Source: Lentzea tibetensis (lineage in GTDB: Bacteria; Actinomycetota; Actinomycetes; Mycobacteriales; Pseudonocardiaceae). From it: a stretch of 64,000 nucleotides of DNA. Positions 9,255 to 21,209 of the stretch are shown in pieces (within the stretch, counting starts at the first letter, position 1; each line of letters opens with the position of its first letter). The notes beneath the pieces are model-generated. The model was not told the origin of the DNA, did no database searches, and saw only the letters and a program-made list of their open reading frames with translations. Where the stretch lies: positions 93,114 to 157,113 of the forward strand of contig NZ_VOBR01000020.1 in the NCBI RefSeq assembly GCF_007845675.1. The letters are read 5' to 3'. A program made the translations under genes and the position numbers.

Positions 9255-12200
9255 TCACTGGCGGGCGGACGGGCACGGTGGCTGGAAGTCGACGCCGGTG
9301 AAGTGCTCGTTCCACTCCCCCTGTCCGAGCGCCTGGAAGTTGGCGCAGATCCACGCCGCCGCGCGGTCGGTGTCGCCGTCCCACAACCGGGTCGTGCGGT
9401 CTTCGCCACCGGTGGCCAGCGTGTGGCCGCCGGGCCGGAACGCCACCGCGTAGACGCGGGTCGTGTGGCCGGTGAGCACCGCCAGTTCGGCGGGCTTGCC
9501 GGGGTCCTGGACGTTCCACAGCCGAGTGGTGACGTCGGCGCCTGCGGTGGCGAGCGTGCTGCCGTCGGCGCTGAACGCGACCGAGTGGACGGTTTCGGTG
9601 TGACTGGTCAGGCTCGCGATCTCCTTGCCGCGCCGGGGATCGCCGACGTCCCACAGCCGGACCGTGTGGTCGGCGCTGCCGGTCGCCAGTGTGCGGCCGT
9701 CGCGGTGGAAGGCCACCGACTTGATGCTGTCGGTGTGCCCCTTCAGCGACAGCAGCTCGTACGGGTGGAGCCGGTCCGTGACGTCCCACAGCCGCACCAC
9801 GTGGCCGGAAGTGCCTCCGGCCACGATGCGACCGTCCGGGCTGAAGGCCACCGACTCGATGTTGTCGACGTCCGAGTCGCCCGTCAGCACGGTCAGCTGA
9901 CGTGGCTGCCGGGCGTCGGCGACGTCCCACAGGCGCAGCGAGTGGTCCGCGCTGCCGGTCGCCAACGTCCGGCCGTCCGGGCTGAACGCCACCGACTGCA
10001 CCGACTCGGCGTGACCGGTGAGAGTGGCGAGCTCACCCGGCCGCTGCGGATCGGCCAGGTCCCACAGGCGGACCGTGCGGTCGAGGCTCGCGGTGGCGAG
10101 CAACCGGCTGTCAGGGCTGAAGGTCACGGAGTTGACCGCCGCGGTGTGCGTGGTCGACAGAGCGACATGCCGGGGCCGTCGCACGTCACCGATGTCCCAC
10201 AACCGGACCGTGCCGTCGTAGCTGCCGGTGGCCGTGAAGCGGCCGTCGGGGCTGAACGCCACGGTGTAGACGGCGTCGTCGTGCCCGGTGAGCACCGGGC
10301 CGGGGATGTCCCACAACCGCACGGTGCGGTCGAACCCGGCGGTGGCCAGGGTGCGTCCGTCCGGGGTGAACCGCGCGGTCAGCACCGGACCGGTGTGGCC
10401 CTGCAGGACAGCGAGCTCTCGGGGGCGGCGCGGCGCGGTGACGTCCCAGAGCCGCACGTCGCGCCCCAGGCTGGCGGTGGCCAGGGTGTGGCCGTCCGGA
10501 CTGAACGTGACCGCGTGGATGCCGTTCATGTTGTCGGTGAAGACCGCCAGCTCCTCGGGGTGGCGCGGGTCGGTGACCTGCCAGAGGTGCACGGCGTGGT
10601 CGGAGGTGATGCTCGCCAGGGTGGTGCCGTCAGGGCTGAAGGCGACCGATCCGGGCTTGTCGGTGTGCGTCCCCACCAACGCCTGCTCCGCAGGTGCACC
10701 GGGGTTCGTGACGTCCCACAGCCGGACGGTGCGGTCCCAGCTGACCGTCGCCAGCGTGCGGCTCCTCGGACTGAACGCGACCGTGGTCACCACGTCGGTG
10801 TGACCGGTGAGAATGCCGATCTGCCTGGCGTTGCGGGGATCGGTGACGTCCCACAGGCGAACGGTGTGGTCGCTGCTCGCGGTGGCCAGCAGGGTGCCGT
10901 CCGGCGCGAACGCGGCCGACACGACGGCGTGCTCGTGCCCGGTCAGCGGGACCAACTTGGCCGGATGACGGGGATCGGCGAGGTCCCACAGCCGGACCGT
11001 CCTGTCCTCGCCCGTGGTGACCAGCACCGTGCCCGCCGGGTTGAACGCCACCGACCAGACCGTGCCGGTGTGCGCGGTGAGCACGGACAGCTCGACCGGG
11101 TGATGGGGGTCGGAGATGTCCCGCACCCGGACGGTGTGGTCGGAGCTCGCCGAGGCCAGCAGTCGCCCGTCCGGGCTGACGGCCACCGACTGGACGATCG
11201 CCTCGTGGCCGGTCAACCGGGTCGCGACCGGCGTGGCCGCCGCGCTGAGCAGGCTGCTGCGGGCCTCGAAGGTGGGCGCCACCTGGAAAGCGGCCAGGCT
11301 GAGCTGGGCGGCCAGGCCCGGATTGCTGGTGCGCGACGTGGCGGCCTGTCCGGCGACCTTCTGGGACAGCGCCGTGTTGCGCTGCCCGGCGATCGTCTGC
11401 CCGGCTTCGGCGGCGAAGATGGTGGTCGCGGTCGCGAGCACGAGCAGTGCGGTGAGCACCCCGACGAGCTGCCGCAGCCGGCGCGCCCCGCGACGAGCCG
11501 CGGCCTGTTCCTCGGTTCGCGCCGCCGCGCTCGCGGCGAGGAAGTCCTTTTCGGACGGACTGAGCGCCACGCCCGCACGGGCCCACTCCTGCGCCACGTC
11601 CAGCCGCACCCCCCGGTACAGCGAGCCAGGATCACGGCGCAGCGCCAGCCAGTCCGCGGTCGCGTCGGTGAGGCCGCGGTGGATCCGCAGCCCGTCGCGG
11701 TCCTCGGCCAGCCAGGCGCGCAGCCGCGGCCACGAGCGGATGAGGGCTTCGTGCGCGATCTCCACGCCGTCCGAGTCGAGCACGATCAGGCGCGCGGTCG
11801 CCAGCCGCTCCAGCACCTCCAGGGTGCTCCCGTCGGAACGGTCGAGCTCGTCGACGCTCACCCGGCGCTTGGTGTCCTCGGTGCCCTGCCCGAGGGCGCA
11901 CAGGCGGAGGAAGAGCTGCTTGGCGATGCGTTGCCGTTCGGCGGGCAGGTGGTTGTAGACGTCCTCCGCGGTGTGGGCGACCGCGTGCTCGATCCCGCCG
12001 GCCGCCTCGTAGCCCGCCGTGGTCAGCGTGGTGCCGCGTCGCCGCCGCCACGTCTCCATCAGCGCGTGGGACAGCAGCGGCAGCACCCCCGGCTGGCCGG
12101 AGGCTTCCGCGACGATGCGGGTCACCAGCGCGGACTCCACCGTGCACTTGGCGCGCACCGCGGGCTGGACGACGGCGAGCCTCAGCTCGTCGGCCGTCAT

Positions 12201-13046
12201 CGGCCCGACCGTGACCTGACCCGCCCGCAGCACGTCCACCAGCTCCGGGTGCGTGGTGCAGTGGGCGTAGAAGTCCGCGCGCACGCCGAGCACGACGCGG
12301 CAACGGCTGTTGTCGGTCTGCGCGGCGGTCAGCAACTGGTCGATGAACCGAACCCGCTCGTCGGCGTCACGGCACAGGGTGAAGACCTCTTCGAACTGGT
12401 CGACCACCAGCGTCAGCTCGGCGTCGTCCGGCACCACCTGCCGGACCGCGCGGTGCAGCTCCCGCCGGTCCCCACCGAGCGGTTCCACCGGCGAGCCCGC
12501 GAACCGGCCGAGGTGGATGGCGCACTCCTCGAGCGGGTGCGTCCCCGGCGTGAACAGCACCACCGGACCGGACGAGCCCGCGACCAGCCCGGCCCGCAGC
12601 AGCGACGACTTGCCCGAACCCGACGCGCCGACGACCACCACGACGCGGTGCTCCGCGAGGCGGGAGACCAGCTCCCGCACCAACGGGTCCCGCCCGAAGA
12701 ACCTCTCCGCGTCCTCCGCCTGGAACGCCGCCAGCCCCACGTAGGGCGGTGAGCCGGGCCCGTCGACGGGCTCCGGTGGTTCCATCTCGGCCGCGACCTC
12801 GCGCCAGCGCTGCTCCCACTCGTCGGCCGCTCCCCCGCAGGCGCTCACGTACGCGAGCGCGACCTGCAGGCTCGGCAACCGGCGCCCCGCGGCGGCCTGC
12901 GACAGCACCGCCTGCGAGTAATGCGTCTCCGCGCTCAGCTCCCGGTACGTCGGCGATCCAGCCTTTTCCCGCAACAACCGCAGGTCTCGGGCGAATCTGA
13001 GCAGCGCACTGTCACCCGCGTCGAGCGGGCGTTCCCCTCTTGGCAT
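9255..13046 (-). CDS. STAND NTPase with N-terminal XRE-like domain, one membrane segment and 14 WD40 repeats
   Basis: A 1263-residue protein. Residues about 10-75 look like an XRE-type helix-turn-helix (TYRELSAETHYSQAVLSQAAAG). Then comes an nSTAND1-type NTPase with Walker A GASGSGKSSLL near 138 and Walker B LVVDQFEEVF. One hydrophobic segment (LVGVLTALLVLATATTIFA, about 525-545) sits before the C-terminal repeats. From about 611 to 1225 I count 14 WD40 repeats of about 43 residues, most ending RLWDV or similar, enough for two seven-bladed propellers. STAND proteins are ligand-triggered oligomerising switches; the propeller is the likely sensor. Regulatory, stress or anti-phage roles are all possible. 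Confidence 0.88.
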   Translation of the reverse strand: MPRGERPLDAGDSALLRFARDLRLLREKAGSPTYRELSAETHYSQAVLSQAAAGRRLPSLQVALAYVSACGGAADEWEQRWREVAAEMEPPEPVDGPGSPPYVGLAAFQAEDAERFFGRDPLVRELVSRLAEHRVVVVVGASGSGKSSLLRAGLVAGSSGPVVLFTPGTHPLEECAIHLGRFAGSPVEPLGGDRRELHRAVRQVVPDDAELTLVVDQFEEVFTLCRDADERVRFIDQLLTAAQTDNSRCRVVLGVRADFYAHCTTHPELVDVLRAGQVTVGPMTADELRLAVVQPAVRAKCTVESALVTRIVAEASGQPGVLPLLSHALMETWRRRRGTTLTTAGYEAAGGIEHAVAHTAEDVYNHLPAERQRIAKQLFLRLCALGQGTEDTKRRVSVDELDRSDGSTLEVLERLATARLIVLDSDGVEIAHEALIRSWPRLRAWLAEDRDGLRIHRGLTDATADWLALRRDPGSLYRGVRLDVAQEWARAGVALSPSEKDFLAASAAARTEEQAAARRGARRLRQLVGVLTALLVLATATTIFAAEAGQTIAGQRNTALSQKVAGQAATSRTSNPGLAAQLSLAAFQVAPTFEARSSLLSAAATPVATRLTGHEAIVQSVAVSPDGRLLASASSDHTVRVRDISDPHHPVELSVLTAHTGTVWSVAFNPAGTVLVTTGEDRTVRLWDLADPRHPAKLVPLTGHEHAVVSAAFAPDGTLLATASSDHTVRLWDVTDPRNARQIGILTGHTDVVTTVAFSPRSRTLATVSWDRTVRLWDVTNPGAPAEQALVGTHTDKPGSVAFSPDGTTLASITSDHAVHLWQVTDPRHPEELAVFTDNMNGIHAVTFSPDGHTLATASLGRDVRLWDVTAPRRPRELAVLQGHTGPVLTARFTPDGRTLATAGFDRTVRLWDIPGPVLTGHDDAVYTVAFSPDGRFTATGSYDGTVRLWDIGDVRRPRHVALSTTHTAAVNSVTFSPDSRLLATASLDRTVRLWDLADPQRPGELATLTGHAESVQSVAFSPDGRTLATGSADHSLRLWDVADARQPRQLTVLTGDSDVDNIESVAFSPDGRIVAGGTSGHVVRLWDVTDRLHPYELLSLKGHTDSIKSVAFHRDGRTLATGSADHTVRLWDVGDPRRGKEIASLTSHTETVHSVAFSADGSTLATAGADVTTRLWNVQDPGKPAELAVLTGHTTRVYAVAFRPGGHTLATGGEDRTTRLWDGDTDRAAAWICANFQALGQGEWNEHFTGVDFQPPCPSARQ

Positions 13047-13113
13047 GCCACACCCCCAGATGTCGATTGTTCACGAATCCGCGGGCGCACGTCTCGCTCA
13101 ATGATCACAAATA

Positions 13114-13132
13114 CTCCATACGCAGTACGGAG
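13114..13132. promoter_or_regulatory. Imperfect palindrome in divergent intergenic region
   Basis: CTCCATAC and GTACGGAG flank GCA with one mismatch, in the 202-bp gap between the STAND gene and the fourth I36 gene. The same gap holds two copies of TTGTTCACGA (13067-13076 and 13147-13156). These are candidate operator elements only; no known regulator was matched. Confidence 0.3.
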
Positions 13133-13248
13133 AAGCCACTGTTCGGTTGTTCACGAGGTTGTTTGTTTGGCGCTCGCCACCGATCCGAATCAACGCGGCC
13201 GAGCTAGCTTGGGGCCACCTCGATCGAGCAAGAACTGGGGAGGAATAC

Positions 13249-13773
13249 GTGATCCGTACGTTGTCGAGGCCTCGCAGGGTGGTCGCCGCAGCGGCGATGG
13301 CACTGCTGGCCGTCATTTCGTTCAGCAGCCCGGCTTCTGCCGATGTGCCACCGCCGACCACGAGCAACTGGACGGTGGATGCCTGGTCCGACGGTGCGCT
13401 GGACTCCATGGTGGCCGCGAACCCCGGCGCCAGGCGAATCAGCCAGGACACCGTGATTTTCGCCGACGGGGGCGGCGTGAAAGCAGCGCCCGCGGCCGGT
13501 ACGTGCCTGTACCGGTATCTCTGCGTCTGGAAGGGATTGGGCTACAACGGGGCGAAGCTCATGTTCTGGAAGTGCGAGTTCCGGAACTTCGGCGCCGAAT
13601 ACCCCGGCTGGAGCGACGCGATTCGCTCGTACCAGAACCACCAGAGCGGAGGGGCGGTCTCCGTCTTCTACGACTGGCAGGGACGGTGGATCGAGGTCGA
13701 GCGGACGCGGGCCATCGAGGACATCCCCGTCGAGCGCGGTGCGGGCCGGGCCGACGGCGTGCAGGTGTGCTGA
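13249..13773 (+). CDS. Secreted peptidase inhibitor I36-family protein, fourth copy
   Basis: The GTG start has GGGGAGG seven bases upstream; the longer frame from 13147 would cover the promoter region and is rejected. The 174-residue product has a signal peptide (core VVAAAAMALLAVISF), the pro-like motif ANPGARRISQDTV, then CLYRYLCVWKG, FWKCEFRNFG, GWSDAIRSYQNHQ and a terminal VC. It shares the four-cysteine layout of the genes at 8235 and 8729 but lies beyond the STAND gene, divergent from it. This suggests that the STAND gene sits inside an I36 gene family locus. Confidence 0.82.
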   Translation: MIRTLSRPRRVVAAAAMALLAVISFSSPASADVPPPTTSNWTVDAWSDGALDSMVAANPGARRISQDTVIFADGGGVKAAPAAGTCLYRYLCVWKGLGYNGAKLMFWKCEFRNFGAEYPGWSDAIRSYQNHQSGGAVSVFYDWQGRWIEVERTRAIEDIPVERGAGRADGVQVC

Positions 13774-13793
13774 CCTCGTAGCTGAACGACCGT

Positions 13794-13827
13794 GCTGCGG
13801 AGAGCTCCAGCTGGAGCTCTCCGCAGC
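13794..13827. terminator. Bidirectional terminator, perfect palindrome
   Basis: A perfect 34-bp palindrome centred at 13810/13811 (arms GCTGCGGAGAGCTCCAG and its complement) lies between convergent genes. It would end both the I36 transcript and the MFS-terminated operon. Confidence 0.8.
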
Positions 13828-13854: not shown

Positions 13855-15066
13855 TCAAAACGTGCGCGCGGAAGCGCGAGCATCCCTCGGCTTCGCCCTG
13901 CCGACCTGCACGGCCATCCCCAGCCCCGCGAGCACGAAGATGCCGGCGAGCACGAACCAGCCGGGCGGGCCGAGCTGGATGGTCAGCAGGATGAGCGCCG
14001 CGGGGGCGATCTGCTGCGCCGCGGCGGTTCCGGTGTTGAACAGCCCCAGGTACTGACCGGTGGCGTCGCGCGGCGCGAGCTCGTAGCTCACCACCCACGC
14101 TCCCGACGCCTGGAGCATCTCGCCGTGCGCGTGCACCGCCGCACCCACGACGAGCAGCAGCACGGTCACCGGCGTGGAGACGTACGAGGCCGTCGCGAAC
14201 AGCACGCAGGCCGCCGCGAGCAGCAGACCGGTCGTGCGCACCTCGCGGGCCGCCTTCGCCAGCGTGTCGACGCGCGTGCTGACCCTGATCTGGAACAGGA
14301 CGACCGCCGTCGTGTTCACCACCACCAGCACCGCGACGAGGAACCGGGGTGCGTCGGTGTACCTCGTGATCCACAGCGGCAGCACGACCTCGATCAGCGG
14401 CGCGTGCAGCAACAGCAGCATGTTCGTCGCGGCGAGTGCGACGTAGCGGCGGTCGCGCAGCACCGCGTACCAGCGCGGACGTTCGCCGGCCTCGGCATCC
14501 GCCGCCCGGTCGGGCAGTCGCAGGAACACCGCGGCGCACGCGACGAAGCTCACCGCGTCCAGCGCGAGGACCGCCAGGTACGCCTCGCGGGTGTCCACGA
14601 CCAGCGCGACCGCGGCGAATCCCGCGCCGACGGTGACCCCGATGTTGGTAACGCTGCGGAGAAAGGCCCTGGTGCGCACCAGCTTCTCGCCGTCGACGAC
14701 GGAGACGATCAGCGCCTGCCTCGCTGCGTAGGCGGCCCGGTCGCACACCGCGAACGCCACCGCGACCACGACGAACAGCCACGCGCTGCTGACGAACAGG
14801 TAGCCGGCCACGCACAGGCCGGTCAGCGCGGTGAGCACGGCGGTGGTGCGGCGAGGCCCGTGGACGTCCGCGAGGTGACCGCCGGGCACACCCGCGAACA
14901 ACCCCGCCAGCCCGGCCGCGGTCAGGCCGGCGCCCATCGTCAGCGGCGACAGGCCCGCGACACGGGTGAAGTACAGGGCGGACGCGGTGATGAACGCCCC
15001 GTTGCCCACGGTCGTCGCGAAGATCGCCGCCGCGAGCGTCCGCGCCGGACCTGGTTCGGGCAGCAG
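13855..15066 (-). CDS. MFS exporter, last gene of the ATP-grasp/radical SAM operon
   Basis: About 403 residues with some 12 hydrophobic segments and the MFS loop motif GGHLADVHGPRRT after the second helix; the overall pattern matches drug-efflux MFS proteins. The first helix begins within a few codons of the upstream PhyH stop, but no ATG, GTG or TTG occurs in frame there. The only conventional in-frame start is a GTG at 15009, which would remove half of the first helix. I give 15066 (CTG) as a working start. It probably exports the operon's product. Confidence 0.8.
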   Translation of the reverse strand: MLPEPGPARTLAAAIFATTVGNGAFITASALYFTRVAGLSPLTMGAGLTAAGLAGLFAGVPGGHLADVHGPRRTTAVLTALTGLCVAGYLFVSSAWLFVVVAVAFAVCDRAAYAARQALIVSVVDGEKLVRTRAFLRSVTNIGVTVGAGFAAVALVVDTREAYLAVLALDAVSFVACAAVFLRLPDRAADAEAGERPRWYAVLRDRRYVALAATNMLLLLHAPLIEVVLPLWITRYTDAPRFLVAVLVVVNTTAVVLFQIRVSTRVDTLAKAAREVRTTGLLLAAACVLFATASYVSTPVTVLLLVVGAAVHAHGEMLQASGAWVVSYELAPRDATGQYLGLFNTGTAAAQQIAPAALILLTIQLGPPGWFVLAGIFVLAGLGMAVQVGRAKPRDARASARTF

Positions 15067-15068
15067 GG

Positions 15069-15770
15069 CTATGACTTCACGCTCCAGCCGTCGGCGTAGG
15101 CGGGGTGGAAGCTCCGCCCGCGCACCGCGAGCCGCCGCCCGTGCGCCACCTTGCCGCCCTCGTGCACCAGATCGCTGTCGATCACCAGCAGCGTGCCCGC
15201 CGGTCCGTCGACGGGCCGGGTGTCCTGCGGAACGGAGTCGGGCAGCACCCTGGTCTCGTCCTGTCCGGGCAGCACGCCCGCCAGCCGGTTCTCCCGCTGG
15301 GCCGCCTTCGCGTAGCCGTGCGATCCGGGGACGCAGCGGAACGCGCCGGTGCTCTCGTCCACGTCCGTCAGGTACAGGAAGAACTTGAGGTTCGGCATGC
15401 GGTCGTAGTGCGGGTGGTGCGCCGCGTGCACGGTGCCGGGCAGGTCGAGCACGGCGATCACGTCGTGGTTGAACAGGTGCGGTTCGTCGCCGAAGAACGC
15501 CGCGGCCACCTCGCGCATCCACGGCCGGTCGAACACCTCGTCCAGCACCGGGAAGCCGGCGCGCACGAACTCCCGCTCGGCCCGCACACCCGCGCCGCCC
15601 GAGTAGTCCAGCCGCTTCGCCCGTTCCGGCGGAGCCTCGAGAAACCGTTCCACGTCCGCGACCAGGCGGGCGTTCTCGGCGGGCGACAGGTAGCCGGGCA
15701 CGCGCGCGATGCCGTGCTCGACCACGGCGGCCAGCACGTCGGCCTGCTCCGCTGCCACGGTGAAAGTCAT
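15069..15770 (-). CDS. Phytanoyl-CoA dioxygenase (PhyH)-family Fe(II)/2-oxoglutarate oxygenase
   Basis: The ATG at 15770 has GGAGGAC five bases upstream, so the longer frame to 15806 is not used. The 233-residue protein fits the small PhyH family. The iron ligands are visible as H-x-D in HPHYD near residue 118 and the distal His in SDLVHEGGK near 207, with an Arg-rich 2-oxoglutarate site following (RLAVRGRSFH). PhyH enzymes hydroxylate, halogenate or epoxidise small molecules or amino acid derivatives. Its place between peptide-ligase-type genes and an exporter suggests tailoring of a biosynthetic intermediate. Confidence 0.85.
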   Translation of the reverse strand: MTFTVAAEQADVLAAVVEHGIARVPGYLSPAENARLVADVERFLEAPPERAKRLDYSGGAGVRAEREFVRAGFPVLDEVFDRPWMREVAAAFFGDEPHLFNHDVIAVLDLPGTVHAAHHPHYDRMPNLKFFLYLTDVDESTGAFRCVPGSHGYAKAAQRENRLAGVLPGQDETRVLPDSVPQDTRPVDGPAGTLLVIDSDLVHEGGKVAHGRRLAVRGRSFHPAYADGWSVKS

Positions 15771-15905
15771 CGTTGTCCTCCAGTCAGCACCGGCAGGTCC
15801 ACCCACGACCTCGCCTCCCCCACCACCACGAAAGTCACCGTCGTTCCTCAGTCAGCACCAGATGTCCCGCGGGCGGCAGATCCGCCCACGGTCCGACCTC
15901 CCCCA
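15763..15905. repeat. Degenerate direct duplication of the 3' end of the histidine phosphatase gene
   Basis: Read on the minus strand, the segment 15905 to 15831 (GGGGGAGGTCGG... GGTGCTGACTGAGGAACGACGGTGACTTTC) is repeated imperfectly at about 15822 to 15763, with a roughly 12-base internal deletion and scattered substitutions. The first copy encodes the last codons of the phosphatase. The second copy forms the spacer, ribosome site and start of the PhyH gene. Confidence 0.65.
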
Positions 15906-16365
15906 ACAGCCGCCGCACCACCGCGTAGGCGGTGTTCGCGTGGGTGACCACCACCAACGGATCGCCCGCCACGTCGTCGATCGCCTCGACCGCCCGGTCG
16001 GCCACGGCGTCGAGCCCTTCGCGGTTCTCGCCGGGCGCCCACAACTCGCCTGCCCGCCACCGCGCGTACTCCGCGGGAAACCGTTGGCGCACCTCGGAGT
16101 GATCCAGCCCGCTCCACGCGCCGAGGTGCTCCTCGCGCAGCCGTGCGTCGACGGTGAACCCGAGGCCGGCCGCGGCCGCGATCTCGGCGGCGGTGGCGGT
16201 GGCCCGCGCCAGGTCGCTGCTGATCACCGCGCGCGGGCGGAGCGCGGCCACGGTCCGCGCCACCGTCTTCGCCTCGACGAGGCCCTGAGCGCTGAGCTCG
16301 ACGTCGCGGTGCCCGGTGAACCGGCCCGGCCACACCGTCGCCCCGTGCCGCACCAGCACGATCAC
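15835..16365 (-). CDS. Histidine phosphatase (phosphoglycerate mutase-like) family protein
   Basis: A 176-residue single-domain enzyme. The phosphohistidine motif VRHGATVWPG lies at residues 5-14, with the second Arg/His site in VVVTHANTAY near 140 and the E-x-H-x-G element LREEHLGAW. The start GTG overlaps the SDR stop by four bases. Members remove phosphate from sugars, nucleotides or small biosynthetic intermediates. In this operon it could dephosphorylate a phosphorylated intermediate or product, which is inference from position. Confidence 0.85.
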   Translation of the reverse strand: MIVLVRHGATVWPGRFTGHRDVELSAQGLVEAKTVARTVAALRPRAVISSDLARATATAAEIAAAAGLGFTVDARLREEHLGAWSGLDHSEVRQRFPAEYARWRAGELWAPGENREGLDAVADRAVEAIDDVAGDPLVVVTHANTAYAVVRRLLGEVGPWADLPPAGHLVLTEERR

Positions 16366-17132
16366 CCGTGCCACGCACCCAGCCCCCCGGACACGTCGAC
16401 GACGGCACCGACCACGTAGGACGACAACGGCGAGAGCAGCATCGCCACGATCGGGGCGACCTCCTCGGGCGTGCCGAACCGGCCGACCGGGATCCCGCGC
16501 CTGGCCGCCTCCCGCGCGGACCACGAGGCGAAGTCCAGGTCCGTGCCGGACCGCGCGTGCTTGGCGTGCTGCCGCTCGGTGCTGATCGCGCCGAGGTTCA
16601 CCGTGTTCACCCGGACACCGCGCGGCGTGAGCGTGCTCGCCAGCATCGTGGCCAGCGCGCCCGCGGCGGCCCGTGCGGCGCTCACCGCGGCCATGTCCGG
16701 TTCGGGGGCGCGCGCCGTGACGCCGTTCATCAGCACGACGGCGCCATCGGTCGTGAGGTGCTCGACCGCGGGCTCGACGAGGTTGAGCACGCTGGACAAC
16801 TTCACGTCGCACTGGTCGCGCCACACGTCGAGCGGCGTGTCGAGCACGCCGCCCACCGCGCCGGCGCCCGCGTTCGCGACGACGCCGTCGATCCCACCGA
16901 GCTCCGCGGCGGCCTCGGCGACGAACTCCCGCATCCGGTCCCGGTCGCGGACGTCGGCCTGCCGCGCCACCAGCCGATCAGTGTCTCCCCAGGCCTCGCG
17001 CAGGACCGACTCGTCACGCGCGCAGGTCGCCACCCGCGCGCCCTCGGCGAGCAGGGTGGCGACGACCGCCCTGCCGATCCCCCGGCTGCCGCCGGTGACC
17101 ACGTACCGGCGACCGGCCAGATCCAGGTCCAT
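16362..17132 (-). CDS. Atypical short-chain dehydrogenase/reductase lacking the catalytic Tyr and Lys
   Basis: A 256-residue Rossmann protein whose ATG follows GAGGAG. The cofactor motif TGGSRGIG (residues 13-20), the ADVRDR acid and VANAGAG are intact. At the active site, where YxxxK is expected, it reads VSAAR, so Tyr is Val and Lys is Arg. The catalytic Ser position (LMNGVTA) is also changed. The C-terminal DVSGGLGAWHG is normal. It may bind NAD(P) or substrate without ordinary ketone reduction, or use other residues. It is in the operon between an ATP-grasp gene (30 bases upstream) and the phosphatase. Confidence 0.85.
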   Translation of the reverse strand: MDLDLAGRRYVVTGGSRGIGRAVVATLLAEGARVATCARDESVLREAWGDTDRLVARQADVRDRDRMREFVAEAAAELGGIDGVVANAGAGAVGGVLDTPLDVWRDQCDVKLSSVLNLVEPAVEHLTTDGAVVLMNGVTARAPEPDMAAVSAARAAAGALATMLASTLTPRGVRVNTVNLGAISTERQHAKHARSGTDLDFASWSAREAARRGIPVGRFGTPEEVAPIVAMLLSPLSSYVVGAVVDVSGGLGAWHG

Positions 17133-17162
17133 GACATCTCCTCGCCTCGGCTCCCCGCCTGC

Positions 17163-18359
17163 TTACCGCAGGTCCCAGGCGATCTGCTCGCCGAGCCAGC
17201 GCACGACCTCGTCGTGCACCGGCACGAGCCCTGCCGGATCGTCGGCGGTGAACAGCACGTCGGCGGCCAGTGCGGACGCCTTGCGGGTGCGCTCGAGCCG
17301 TTGCCCGGCAACGACGTGCGGCCGCCAGTCGACGACACCGCTGACCGGGCAGGTCGCGGGCATCCTGGTGACCCGGCCACCGGGCGCGGGCAGGAGCACG
17401 AAACCGGCCGCGGCCTGAGCGTTCTCGCGCGGCAGGTCCGTGATGCCCGCCTGGCCGAGGCACGACCACCGCTCCAGGTCGACACCGAGCGCGATCCGGG
17501 CCTGGTCGTTGATCCGGCCGCCGCCGGTCCTGGCGGTGATCTCGCACAGGACCACGTCCTCACCCGGCACGTCGAAGAGCTCGCAGTGGAAGCTCGTCGG
17601 CTCCTGCGGGCCCGGCATGGCCTTGACCAGCCGCTCGACGTACGCGGCCGCCCGCACCGCCACCGGATCGTCGTCGTCCAGTCCCACCACCCCCAACGGC
17701 TGGAGGCCGGCGACCAGGCCGTGGCACGTGCCGACGTACCTGCTCACCATCCGCACCAGCACGTCGCCCGCCGCCATCACCCCGTCGACCAGCACCATCG
17801 GCGCGTCGACGTGCTGCTCGACCACCAGTCCGGCCGAGGAGTCCCACGGCGTGCGCCGCGCCGCCGCCCAGGCGGTCAGCTCGTCACGGCTCAGCACGGT
17901 GACGTCGAGCGCACCCGAACCGTCGACCGGCTTGACCACCACCCGGTCCCGCCCTGCGGCGAAGTCGAGCAGGTCCCACACGGTGTCCACGCGTGCGAAC
18001 TCCGGCGTCGCGAGACCGGCCTCGGCGGCGAGCCGCTTCATCACCACCTTGTCCCGGAAGGCAACCGCGGATCGAGTGTCCATTCCGGACACACCGAGCA
18101 GGTCGCGCAGCTCGCCCGCGCGCACCAGGTCGCACTCGCTCAACGCGACGATCCGGTCGAACGGCCGCCGCCGGTGCGCGGCGACCACGGCGAGGTCGAC
18201 GGCCCGGTTGGCCTTCCAGTCGTCGAACACCTCGACCGAGCCGAACCCGGCGGTGGACGGCGGCGGCTGGGCGGCGAACAGCGCCACGTCGTGCCCGGCC
18301 AGCCAGCTGCCGACCGGGTGTGCGCGCAGATCCTTCTTGCACAGCACCGCAATCCTCAT
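17163..18359 (-). CDS. ATP-grasp ligase (second of tandem pair)
   Basis: A 398-residue ATP-grasp protein; the start is the ATG overlapping the stop of the preceding ATP-grasp gene. Residues 1-95 are the pre-ATP-grasp domain. The ATP-binding lysines lie in FRDKVVMKRL and DRVVVKPVDGSGALDV. The metal/nucleotide acid residues lie in TSFHCELF and LCEITARTGGGRIN. The pattern resembles BacD/carnosine-synthase-like ligases, which activate a carboxylate as acyl phosphate and join it to an amine. The start MRIAVLCKKD is close to MSVLVLSKKP of its neighbour, so the two are paralogues. Confidence 0.87.
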   Translation of the reverse strand: MRIAVLCKKDLRAHPVGSWLAGHDVALFAAQPPPSTAGFGSVEVFDDWKANRAVDLAVVAAHRRRPFDRIVALSECDLVRAGELRDLLGVSGMDTRSAVAFRDKVVMKRLAAEAGLATPEFARVDTVWDLLDFAAGRDRVVVKPVDGSGALDVTVLSRDELTAWAAARRTPWDSSAGLVVEQHVDAPMVLVDGVMAAGDVLVRMVSRYVGTCHGLVAGLQPLGVVGLDDDDPVAVRAAAYVERLVKAMPGPQEPTSFHCELFDVPGEDVVLCEITARTGGGRINDQARIALGVDLERWSCLGQAGITDLPRENAQAAAGFVLLPAPGGRVTRMPATCPVSGVVDWRPHVVAGQRLERTRKASALAADVLFTADDPAGLVPVHDEVVRWLGEQIAWDLR

Positions 18360-19558
18360 CGCCACGGCTCCATCGCGTCCCACCAGCGCACCGCCGCGCT
18401 GATCCGCTCCCGCACCTGCGCCGCGTCGGCGCCCTCGACGACGACGGTCGCCACCGAGTCACCCGCGTGCACGGCGCCCGTGCCCCGCACGCCGGTCAAC
18501 TCCAACCGCACACCGGGCACGGGACACGGTTCCGCCGGCGGGGTGAACGTCCCCTGCCGCGGCGTGATCGCGACCCAGCCGCCGTACCGGACCGGCACGG
18601 CGGGCACGGCGGAGACCGGCAGCCCGGCCTGCCCGCGCAGGTTCTCCTTCGACAGGTGCACGCCGAACGCCGCGGCGTACACGTCCGCCACGAACGCACC
18701 GCCGGTGCGGGAAGCGGCCTCGCACAGCACCGGCGCACCTCCGTCGTGCGGCAGCCACGCCTCCAGGTGGAAGCTCGTCGGCAACGGGAAGTGCGGCAGC
18801 GCGTCGAGCACCGCGGCCGCGTGGTCGAGCAGCGGGAGGAACGACCCGTCCTGCGGAGCGAGCATGGCGCTCGTCAGCGGAACGCCGTCCCTGACCGCCT
18901 CGGCGTTGCCGCCCGAGTAGCGGCTCGGCCAGCAGTGCAGGATCCGCCCGCCGGCCGCGAGACCGTCCACGTGGCACAGCACGCCGTCCACGAACGACTC
19001 CGCCATCCACTCACCGGGCCGCGCGGGCGCCGCGGGCAGCACGCCGCAACCCAGCAGGGACACCAGGTCCGCCGCCGAGCGCAGCACGTGCACGCCCTCC
19101 GACCCGCCACCCCGGCGCGGCTTGACCACGACGGGAAACCCGTGCACCTCGGCGAACGCGACGAGGTCGCCGGGCGTCTCGACCGCGGCGAACTCCGGCA
19201 CCGCGATGCCCGCCGCCCGCGCGTACCGCTTCATCACGAGCTTGTCGCGGTAGGCGATGGCCGACGCGACGGACTGCCCGGTGAGCCCCAGCCGTTCCCG
19301 CAGCCGGGCGGCGCGGACGACGTCCACCTCGCTCGACGACGCGACGAGCTCGGCCGCACGCCGCGCGGCCAGCCGTTCGGCCTCGATCTCGACCTGCCAC
19401 GAGCCGTAGTCGTCCACCGCGACGACCTCGGCGAAGCGGTCCACAACGGACTCGTCGACCGCGCCGGTGACCGTGACGAGGCTGACCGGCGCGCCCGCCA
19501 GCCACTCGTCGACCGGCCGCTGCCGCACCGGCTTCTTGCTCAGCACCAGAACGCTCAT
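18356..19558 (-). CDS. ATP-grasp ligase (first of tandem pair)
   Basis: A 400-residue ATP-grasp protein starting at the ATG that overlaps the radical SAM stop. Layout matches its downstream paralogue: N-terminal domain, YRDKLVMKRYA, glycine-rich loop VVVKPRRGGGSEGV near residue 140, the TSFHLEAW beta strand, and the Mg-binding LCEAASRTGGAFV. Two different ligases side by side suggest two amide bonds, or an activation and a condensation step, in one small product. Substrates cannot be read from the sequence. Both genes are translationally coupled to the radical SAM gene. Confidence 0.87.
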   Translation of the reverse strand: MSVLVLSKKPVRQRPVDEWLAGAPVSLVTVTGAVDESVVDRFAEVVAVDDYGSWQVEIEAERLAARRAAELVASSSEVDVVRAARLRERLGLTGQSVASAIAYRDKLVMKRYARAAGIAVPEFAAVETPGDLVAFAEVHGFPVVVKPRRGGGSEGVHVLRSAADLVSLLGCGVLPAAPARPGEWMAESFVDGVLCHVDGLAAGGRILHCWPSRYSGGNAEAVRDGVPLTSAMLAPQDGSFLPLLDHAAAVLDALPHFPLPTSFHLEAWLPHDGGAPVLCEAASRTGGAFVADVYAAAFGVHLSKENLRGQAGLPVSAVPAVPVRYGGWVAITPRQGTFTPPAEPCPVPGVRLELTGVRGTGAVHAGDSVATVVVEGADAAQVRERISAAVRWWDAMEPWR

Positions 19559-20667
19559 GGCTTGCGCAGCAACGAGTCCGGCGCGAACACCGGCGCCTCG
19601 GCCTTCCAGTCGATCGGCGTGGGACTGACCACCGACGTCGGCGTGCTCCAGTTCATCCGCGCCGGGCACGACGCGACGCCGTGGTCGTCCATGATCTGCG
19701 AGTACATCTCGCGGCGCTTCTGGACGCACGCCAGCAGCCCGCCGTCCTCCGGGTACCAGCTGCCGAGGTACTCGTCGGAGAAGTTGCAGATCAGCGCGTG
19801 CCCGCACGGTTCGGCGTAGATCTTGGCGACGTTCGCGCAGTCCTTCACGGTGAACCCGAGCTGCCGCGCGGGCGGGTAGCACGACACCGTCAGCTCCGGC
19901 CCCTCGCCGGACTCGATGACCTCGCCCAGACCTTCGGCGATGCCCATGAACACGTCGAAGAGTCGTTGCGGTGAAAGGCAGAGCTCGGTCTGGTTCGTCG
20001 CGGCGAGCCCGGACGGGATCCACGGCTTGATCTGCACGACGTCCACGCCGATGCCGGCGAGCGTGTGGTACAGGTCGACGACCTCGTCGTGGTTGTGCCG
20101 CCCCATCCCGATCCGGACGAACACCCACAGCCCGGACTGCTTGGCCCGCTTGATGTTGTCCAGGATCCGTTGGGCGTCACCGTCGTGCGATCCCTTCATC
20201 AACGCGAGCAATCGCTGATCGTCCGCGGTGTTGAAGGTGACCTTCACGCCGGACAGCTTCATGTCCGTGAGCTTGGCGATCCGCTCCTCGGTGAGCAGTG
20301 TCCCGTTGGTCACCAGCCGGGTGGTGATGCCGCGCTCCCCCAACGGCCGGAACACGGCGTCCACGAGATCGAGCGCCATCAACGGCTCACCGCCGGTGCC
20401 GAACACCGCGGCGGGCTTCTCCGGTTCGTCCGGGTCGTCGATCCAGTCGAACAACGAGGTCACGAACTTGTCGGTGTCCAGCGGGTTGAGCCTCTTGCCG
20501 ATGTAGTCCTCGTTCACGCAGAAGATGCAGGCGCGGTTGCACCCGTCGAGGAACTTGACCTCGACCCCGTCCGTGGGGACGTAGGACGACAGGTCGGTTT
20601 GCGGGAAGTTCTCAGCGCGAAATTTGTAGTAAGGGTCAGAGGACGCGTTTGCGCGCAAATTCGACAC
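19555..20667 (-). CDS. Radical SAM protein with cysteine-rich C-terminus, first gene of the operon
   Basis: A 370-residue radical SAM enzyme. The cluster-binding CNRACIFC (C-x3-C-x2-C) is at about residues 43-50, with the SAM-binding GTGGEPL near 89. The C-terminal 120 residues hold six further cysteines (SCYPPAR, DCANV, PCGHAL, ICNFS, ACVQK, SCPAR), consistent with a SPASM or twitch auxiliary cluster. The GTG start has GGGGGA about six bases upstream. It leads an operon with overlapping genes. No short precursor peptide frame is visible upstream, so a RiPP role is not directly supported. Confidence 0.87.
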   Translation of the reverse strand: MSNLRANASSDPYYKFRAENFPQTDLSSYVPTDGVEVKFLDGCNRACIFCVNEDYIGKRLNPLDTDKFVTSLFDWIDDPDEPEKPAAVFGTGGEPLMALDLVDAVFRPLGERGITTRLVTNGTLLTEERIAKLTDMKLSGVKVTFNTADDQRLLALMKGSHDGDAQRILDNIKRAKQSGLWVFVRIGMGRHNHDEVVDLYHTLAGIGVDVVQIKPWIPSGLAATNQTELCLSPQRLFDVFMGIAEGLGEVIESGEGPELTVSCYPPARQLGFTVKDCANVAKIYAEPCGHALICNFSDEYLGSWYPEDGGLLACVQKRREMYSQIMDDHGVASCPARMNWSTPTSVVSPTPIDWKAEAPVFAPDSLLRKP

Positions 20668-20745: not shown

Positions 20746-21209
20746 TTAACTCGGATGGACTAGCCGGCCCGCGTCGAGCACCGCGTCCACGAAGGCGCGC
20801 GGCGCCTCCTGCGGGACGTTGTGACCGATGCCGGGGAGGGTGCGGTGCCGAGCGCCTTGTCGATCCCGAGTGCGTCCATCAGCGCGATGACGTCCAGCGC
20901 GAACGCCGCCTGCTGGGCGTTGCGCACCGTTGCGGCGTCACGGAACCGCGTCGTCCCGTGGCCGCGCAGGTGCGGGACGATCACCCGGTGGCCCCGGCGG
21001 GCCAGCATCGGGGCGACCTCGGCGTAGCTGTGGATGTCGTAGGGCCAGCCGTGCAGCAGGATGACCGGCCTTCCCCGTGGCGGCCCGAGCTCGACGTATC
21101 CGATGTTCAGCATCCCAGCGTCGATCTGGTTGAGCGGCCCGAAGGTGGCGGGCGGCGCCCCCGCCAGTCCAGCACCCACTACCTTGCCGAAGGTTCGCCT
21201 GCTGATCAT
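20746..21209 (-). pseudogene. Alpha/beta hydrolase with Tat signal, internally deleted and out of frame
   Basis: The first 116 or so residues are a normal Tat-exported alpha/beta hydrolase: MISRRTFGKVVGAG signal, VILLHGWPYDIHSY oxyanion region, HLRGHGTTRF and ALDVIALMDALGIDKA. After GIDKA the frame continues as a basic nonsense tail. In another frame the sequence reads RTLPGIGHNVPQEAPRAF and DAVLDAGRLVHPS, which is the normal C-terminal end with the catalytic His. The nucleophile elbow and cap are missing, so roughly 400-500 bases were deleted near 20840. It lies 11 bases after the TehA-like gene. Confidence 0.8.

Follow-up and report, generated by a model that had tools for sequence, protein, structure and literature searches.

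Among described systems, bacilysin combines the ligase BacD with the major facilitator superfamily (MFS) pump BacE, and the dapdiamide pathway contains the ATP-grasp ligase DdaF and the PhyH-type oxygenase DdaC. For polyoxin and nikkomycin, a radical S-adenosylmethionine (SAM) enzyme, a phosphatase and an ATP-grasp ligase belong to one pathway, as described in PMC5365060 and PMC11641026. Here, we present a seven-gene locus of Lentzea tibetensis, located at 13855-20667 of a 64,000-nt stretch (the window) of its 9.36 Mb draft genome. All seven genes are open on the minus strand, in the order radical SAM, two ATP-grasp ligases (AG1 and AG2), a short-chain dehydrogenase/reductase (SDR)-like protein, histidine phosphatase, PhyH and MFS. 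They probably form a ligase-based natural-product operon making a small amide, from a precursor that would be radical-modified, dephosphorylated, ligated and exported. The locus resembles bacilysin in its ligase and pump and polyoxin in its trio of radical SAM enzyme, phosphatase and ligase, and it fits neither; no described matching pathway was found in the open-licence literature or in family libraries. The features are as follows.

19555..20667, minus strand: radical SAM enzyme, the first gene (Pfam PF04055, 1.4e-21)
18356..19558, minus strand: ATP-grasp ligase AG1, predicted L-amino acid ligase type (RizA match and model fold)
17163..18359, minus strand: ATP-grasp ligase AG2, distant AG1 paralogue (phmmer to RizA, 3.2e-11)
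16362..17132, minus strand: SDR-fold protein with an intact Rossmann motif and without the Ser-Tyr-Lys set (Pfam adh_short_C2, 3.8e-43)
15835..16374, minus strand: histidine phosphatase of branch 1, catalytic residues intact (PF00300, His_Phos_1, 1.2e-37)
15069..15770, minus strand: PhyH-type Fe(II)/2-oxoglutarate oxygenase, accessory (PF05721, 4.6e-12)
13855..15072, minus strand: MFS exporter, by family (PF07690, MFS_1, 2.8e-30)
13794..13827, minus strand: perfect 34-base palindrome forming a GC-rich hairpin downstream of the last gene (folding z -4.4)

The genes are conserved as a unit. After merging duplicates, ten loci were compared: the window, L003, L004-L008, L058, L060 and L062. Contig ends truncate two of them (L004 within AG1 and L008 within MFS), and the eight complete ones are the window, one genome of another family and six Nocardia. 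The seven loci attributed to Nocardia were placed in this genus because four of them share exact 100-base stretches with named Nocardia loci. The first-pass annotation of this DNA had staked its proposal on the genes co-occurring in other genomes, and it is not refuted: radical SAM, AG1, AG2, SDR, phosphatase and MFS stand in identical order in all eight complete loci, always with the exporter gene in the last position. L008, a metagenome-assembled genome (MAG) whose pump gene is cut off, keeps this order as far as it is readable. Pairwise identities also correlate between the six genes (r 0.85-0.99; nine loci, with the L008 MFS partial). Conservation is highest for the radical SAM protein, with 65-73% identity to the window copy, and the other genes reach 33-59%. 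Conserved gene order together with correlated divergence rules out a chance neighbourhood, and supports a conserved, co-inherited cassette with a six-gene core. PhyH lies between phosphatase and MFS only in the window and L003 (two of the nine loci with a readable interval), and is an optional tailoring gene outside the core, not part of it as the first-pass annotation had it.

The distribution of the cassette is sporadic. We used the radical SAM protein as bait for genome searches. Among 61 genomes (its own and 60 relatives; E<=1e-20), matches appeared only in its own genome and in G048, which belongs to another family; none of the 24 congeners had a homologue at this threshold. In wider draws, where only the best 5-13 candidates per genome were scored, the bait found 1 of 396 genomes in the phylum (its own), 2 of 397 in the order (its own and G048) and 7 of 148 in Nocardia. 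A class draw at the looser E<=1e-15, which scored at most 10 candidates in each genome, returned 1 of 197, again its own and no other relative, and a plasmid search with the same protein gave zero matches. A contig scan, which relied on two short peptide patterns that relatives can escape, yielded five loci, from four Nocardia and one actinobacterial MAG. Such a distribution is typical of accessory metabolism, and by these searches the radical SAM family appears to be narrowly distributed.

Flanks were compared across seven loci (the window and L003-L008). Three of them, namely the window, L003 and L008, had no flanking gene in common with any other locus, L004 and L005 had several in common, and L006 and L007 one. 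One upstream gene is common to L060, L004 and L005. In L003, the cassette is followed by genes that we take to be ilvC, ilvN and ilvB from their sequence.

For the ligases, Pfam ATP-grasp matches are weak, reaching 3.5e-5 at best with AG1 and 5.9e-5 with AG2, and the assignment of AG1 comes from its sequence match to RizA (9.4e-14) and from its predicted model (mean predicted local distance difference test, pLDDT, 75.1). The top five structural rows by Z (28.3 to 25.3) are RizA, BL00235 and three BacD/YwfE entries, representing three L-amino acid ligases, and PurK-type enzymes come next (Z 24.3). RizA is the best match by both fold and sequence. The data support AG1 as an L-amino-acid-ligase-type ATP-grasp protein, as is BacD, with the predicted fold of the solved enzymes; the BacD parallel drawn in the first-pass annotation stands for the ligase. 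RizA and BL00235 are also the only two solved chains matched by AG2 at E<=0.01. Six AG2 rows are 29-34% identical to the window AG1 and, because of this identity, AG1 and AG2 look like old paralogues. Unlike RizA and BL00235, the cassette ligases are always paired within a conserved set. AG1 keeps K106, K146, E266, E280 and R284 in the nine full-length rows (L004 is cut off), and AG2 keeps K143, E260, E273 and R277 in 9/9; these would be the metal- and nucleotide-binding residues of the ATP-grasp fold.

An ATP-grasp match was present in 29 of 296 class genomes (its own included). Larger regions around six of the matches had an MFS relative beside the ligase in three cases and a generic SDR match (31% identity) in one, L047, and relatives of the radical SAM protein and of the phosphatase were absent from all six at E<=1e-3. 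On two Streptomyces plasmids (L041 10761-16233 and L042 7790-13233), three ATP-grasp genes lie together with genes resembling those for serine acetyltransferase and cysteine synthase. Of the three ligases, the third is among the best plasmid relatives of AG1, and in L041 an annotated enediyne chromoprotein gene lies ~12 kb beyond the ligase set. In L043 (9371-13467, minus strand), a protein with a CX3CX2C motif is sandwiched by two ATP-grasp genes. It matches no family in Pfam (E<=0.01) or NCBIfam (E<=1e-6), and profile comparison gave a probability of 17%, which leaves it as a lead and not a homologue; L043 is possibly a second, unrelated set of ligases and a radical enzyme.

The radical SAM protein carries the CX3CX2C motif at C43, C47 and C50, and four additional cysteines (C263, C277, C294 and C334), all invariant in 10/10 loci. 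The additional cysteines give a twitch-like pattern and may hold an auxiliary cluster, and the G289X4C294 spacing presumably fits the SPASM/twitch motif; in this C-terminal part, the model falls below pLDDT 50 at residues 276-309 and 321-370. By profile, the nearest solved relatives are BlsE (4.1e-8) and MoaA (3.2e-5), with BtrN at 3.3e-3 alongside pyruvate formate-lyase activating enzyme, and all these matches span only the common radical SAM core. BtrN, which has a four-Cys auxiliary cluster, is described as a twitch enzyme and performs a two-electron oxidation (PMC9012708). The four invariant cysteines recall BtrN and the sequence recalls BlsE, and yet the E-values to both are modest.

The SDR-like protein looks catalytically dead from its residues, as the first-pass annotation had suspected. 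The catalytic Ser, Tyr and Lys of classical SDRs are replaced by Gly137, Val150 and Arg154 in 9/9 homologues, window included, and the TGXXXGXG nucleotide motif is kept (T13, G14, G18 and G20 in 9/9). Its best model, NF005468/PRK07062, scores 222 bits, under the cut-off of 266. Among solved structures, 3lf1 is nearest (2.6e-43); it retains the Ser and has Thr and Arg at the other two catalytic places. Since 3lf1 also lacks Tyr and Lys, their loss would be common to a wider group, and the loss of Ser a further step in the cassette protein.

The catalytic residues checked are kept in the phosphatase and in PhyH. In the phosphatase, R9, H10, R57, E81/E82 and H145 (the RHG motif, second Arg, Glu and second His of branch 1) are kept in 9/9, and it resembles CobC (TIGR03162, 101.7 bits against a cut-off of 162.9). 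It is present in every locus that reaches its position (9/9), which points to a phosphorylated intermediate; to our knowledge, neither bacilysin nor dapdiamide would explain one. PhyH keeps H121, D123, H203 and R213 in 2/2.

These details set the locus apart from its closest counterparts. Bacilysin differs in that the cassette has two ligases, a radical SAM enzyme, a phosphatase and an apparently dead SDR, the BacD model gives AG1 a score of only 23.2 bits (cut-off 850), and none of the seven genes falls in the prephenate-derived anticapsin families of the bacilysin gene set. The dapdiamide parallel proposed in the first-pass annotation is weakened: PhyH is missing from seven of the nine cassettes, and DdaF does not appear in the NCBIfam families listed for the ligases (25 of 42 for AG1, 11 for AG2). 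From polyoxin and nikkomycin the cassette differs by having no enolpyruvyl transferase or nucleoside genes, and the likeness is one of enzyme types as described for that pathway. The locus would belong with the ligase-built small amides, and its unusual parts are the narrowly distributed radical SAM family and the catalytically depleted SDR.

From the observed gene set, order, conservation, families and residues, and from the modelled ligase fold of AG1, we infer a substrate, an order of steps and a product, together with any antibiotic role it may have. The radical SAM enzyme would abstract a hydrogen from a small metabolite that probably carries a phosphate, and a putative four-Cys auxiliary cluster would accept an electron, giving a two-electron oxidation or a rearrangement. 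The SDR-fold protein may bind the product and carry out a non-classical step (isomerisation or dehydration, not hydride transfer), or act as a structural partner. The histidine phosphatase would then strip the phosphate, and AG1 and AG2 would make two amide bonds via acyl phosphates, yielding a di- or tripeptide-like amide. PhyH may hydroxylate this amide in some lineages, and the MFS protein would export it. We also put forward, tentatively and as rather unlikely to hold in full, a new class of peptidyl product, in which a distinct radical SAM family would oxidise a phosphorylated sugar, nucleotide or amino-acid precursor, the SDR, depleted of its hydride-transfer residues, would perform a new non-redox step on the radical product, and the paralogous ligases would add two amino acids to give a Trojan-horse-like, pumped-out compound.

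Several points weigh against a ligase-built amide. The wider genome draws scored no more than 5-13 candidates per genome. In the flanks of the window and L003-L008, no regulator, resistance gene or amino-acid-making enzyme travels with the cassette. AG1 is only 16-21% identical in structural alignments to the characterised ligases, RizA and BL00235 among them, and the ranking of Foldseek itself puts RizA first and biotin-carboxylase entries at places 2 and 4; given this low identity and these carboxylase ranks, the ATP-grasp fold alone does not fix the AG1 substrate. For the radical SAM protein, the model is of poor quality (mean pLDDT 56.9, with the two stretches given above below 50), and its fold-search rows are closely spaced across many families. 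The best NCBIfam match of this protein, at 2.3e-14 and 53 bits (cut-off 600), is to a SPASM peptide maturase, which makes a peptide a conceivable substrate.

The most serious alternative is a special case of the ligase-built amide: an aminoacyl or peptidyl nucleoside or sugar of the polyoxin/nikkomycin or blasticidin type, where the radical SAM enzyme would act on a nucleotide or sugar phosphate, followed by dephosphorylation and aminoacylation. In polyoxin, the radical SAM enzyme PolH acts on a nucleotide before the phosphatase PolJ removes the phosphate (PMC5365060), and NikS and PolG are named among ATP-grasp enzymes assembling aminonucleosides (PMC11641026). BlsE and MoaA as nearest solved relatives and a viperin profile match (9.1e-12) agree with such a substrate, although the BlsE and MoaA matches are restricted to the common core. 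The best plasmid relatives of AG1 (36.6-37.9% identity; 68 records matched) are annotated as 'NikS protein' in 11 of the 12 listed; these are database labels, however, and two such regions have no radical SAM or phosphatase homologue at E<=1e-3. Within the cassette, the only part of the genomes searched for nucleoside genes, Pfam places no gene among the enolpyruvyl transferases, nucleosidases, glycosyltransferases or aminotransferases, and the polyoxin-type set is not found there. We consider a nucleoside or sugar product somewhat unlikely.

Another reading would make the radical SAM enzyme the modifier of a ribosomal peptide encoded elsewhere, with the ATP-grasp proteins acting on that peptide, as in ribosomally synthesised and post-translationally modified peptides (RiPPs). 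The SPASM maturase match speaks for it, as does the C-terminal Cys pattern, which presumably resembles SPASM/twitch. Against it, the AG1 model folds like free-amino-acid ligases, and a phosphatase is not known as a usual RiPP part. We also compared small frames of at least 18 residues lying up to 1.2 kb from the cassette, in 10 regions upstream and 8 downstream (blastp E<=1e-3), and none was conserved beyond Nocardia loci, with the limit that shorter or poorly conserved frames could escape. Matches linked L004, L005 and L060, which have a neighbour gene in common, and the downstream regions of L005 and L060. The downstream regions of L007 and L058 gave two further matches, both weak and 24-27 residues long (E 2e-4 and 8e-4). 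A precursor near the cassette was rejected on these grounds, in agreement with the first-pass annotation, which saw none, and a RiPP-like origin appears improbable.

It is hardly likely that the cassette serves primary metabolism, cofactor synthesis or defence in place of making a secreted natural product: the strong conservation of the radical SAM protein across families, its viperin-like PADLOC matches and the CobC-like phosphatase would fit, but the cassette is too rare in the genome draws for primary metabolism, an exporter gene closes every complete copy, and defence is rejected since matches to defence families at E<=1e-5 are limited to the core of the radical SAM protein (residues 38-203), the other six proteins giving none.

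The layout of the operon is compact, and frames, Pfam families and spacing bear out the tight run of seven minus-strand genes described in the first-pass annotation. Radical SAM/AG1 and AG1/AG2 overlap by 4 bases, a 30-base gap separates AG2 from SDR, SDR and phosphatase overlap by 13 bases (4 if the second GTG is taken as the start), and the largest gap, of 64 bases, lies between phosphatase and PhyH. The PhyH and MFS frames overlap or abut. Between 15522 and 15009, the MFS frame contains none of the codons ATG, GTG and TTG, and an ATA codon begins at position 15072, which is given for translation use only. A start at GTG 15009, the next common start codon, would, in our reading, trim the first membrane segment; in L003, the GTG start of the homologue shares 4 bases with the end of PhyH, stop codon included. 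The palindrome at 13794-13827 sits between the convergent MFS and I36-inhibitor genes. A flanking terminator had been proposed here, and the GC-rich hairpin is indeed present; it has no T-run, and an intrinsic-terminator scan did not list it.

Just upstream of the operon lies an alpha/beta hydrolase remnant (20760-21209, minus strand), which keeps both ends and misses ~150 middle residues; related open frames in two congeners have 344-348 residues. We rejected it as an insertion scar because both ends are present, so the operon does not cut the gene. A search for an empty site in congeners found flank matches at scattered places and no clear empty site. On the other side, 9255-13046 (minus strand) encodes a large protein that we named, by reading its sequence, a WD40-repeat protein with an ATPase-like part. 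DNA related to 9255-13780 is present in 25/25 genomes of the genus (its own included), with 16 matches in its own genome, the window's included.

Peptides built by ligases without nonribosomal peptide synthetases or polyketide synthases may escape cluster-finding rules. At ~6.8 kb, with its exporter included and conserved across actinobacterial families, the cassette should be clonable whole. Two of its enzymes are of interest for their open chemistry, a radical SAM protein from a family that appears narrowly distributed and an SDR-fold protein that is conserved despite lacking the catalytic residues. A few soil actinobacteria would carry an apparent new route to a small amide, without giant peptide-making machines.

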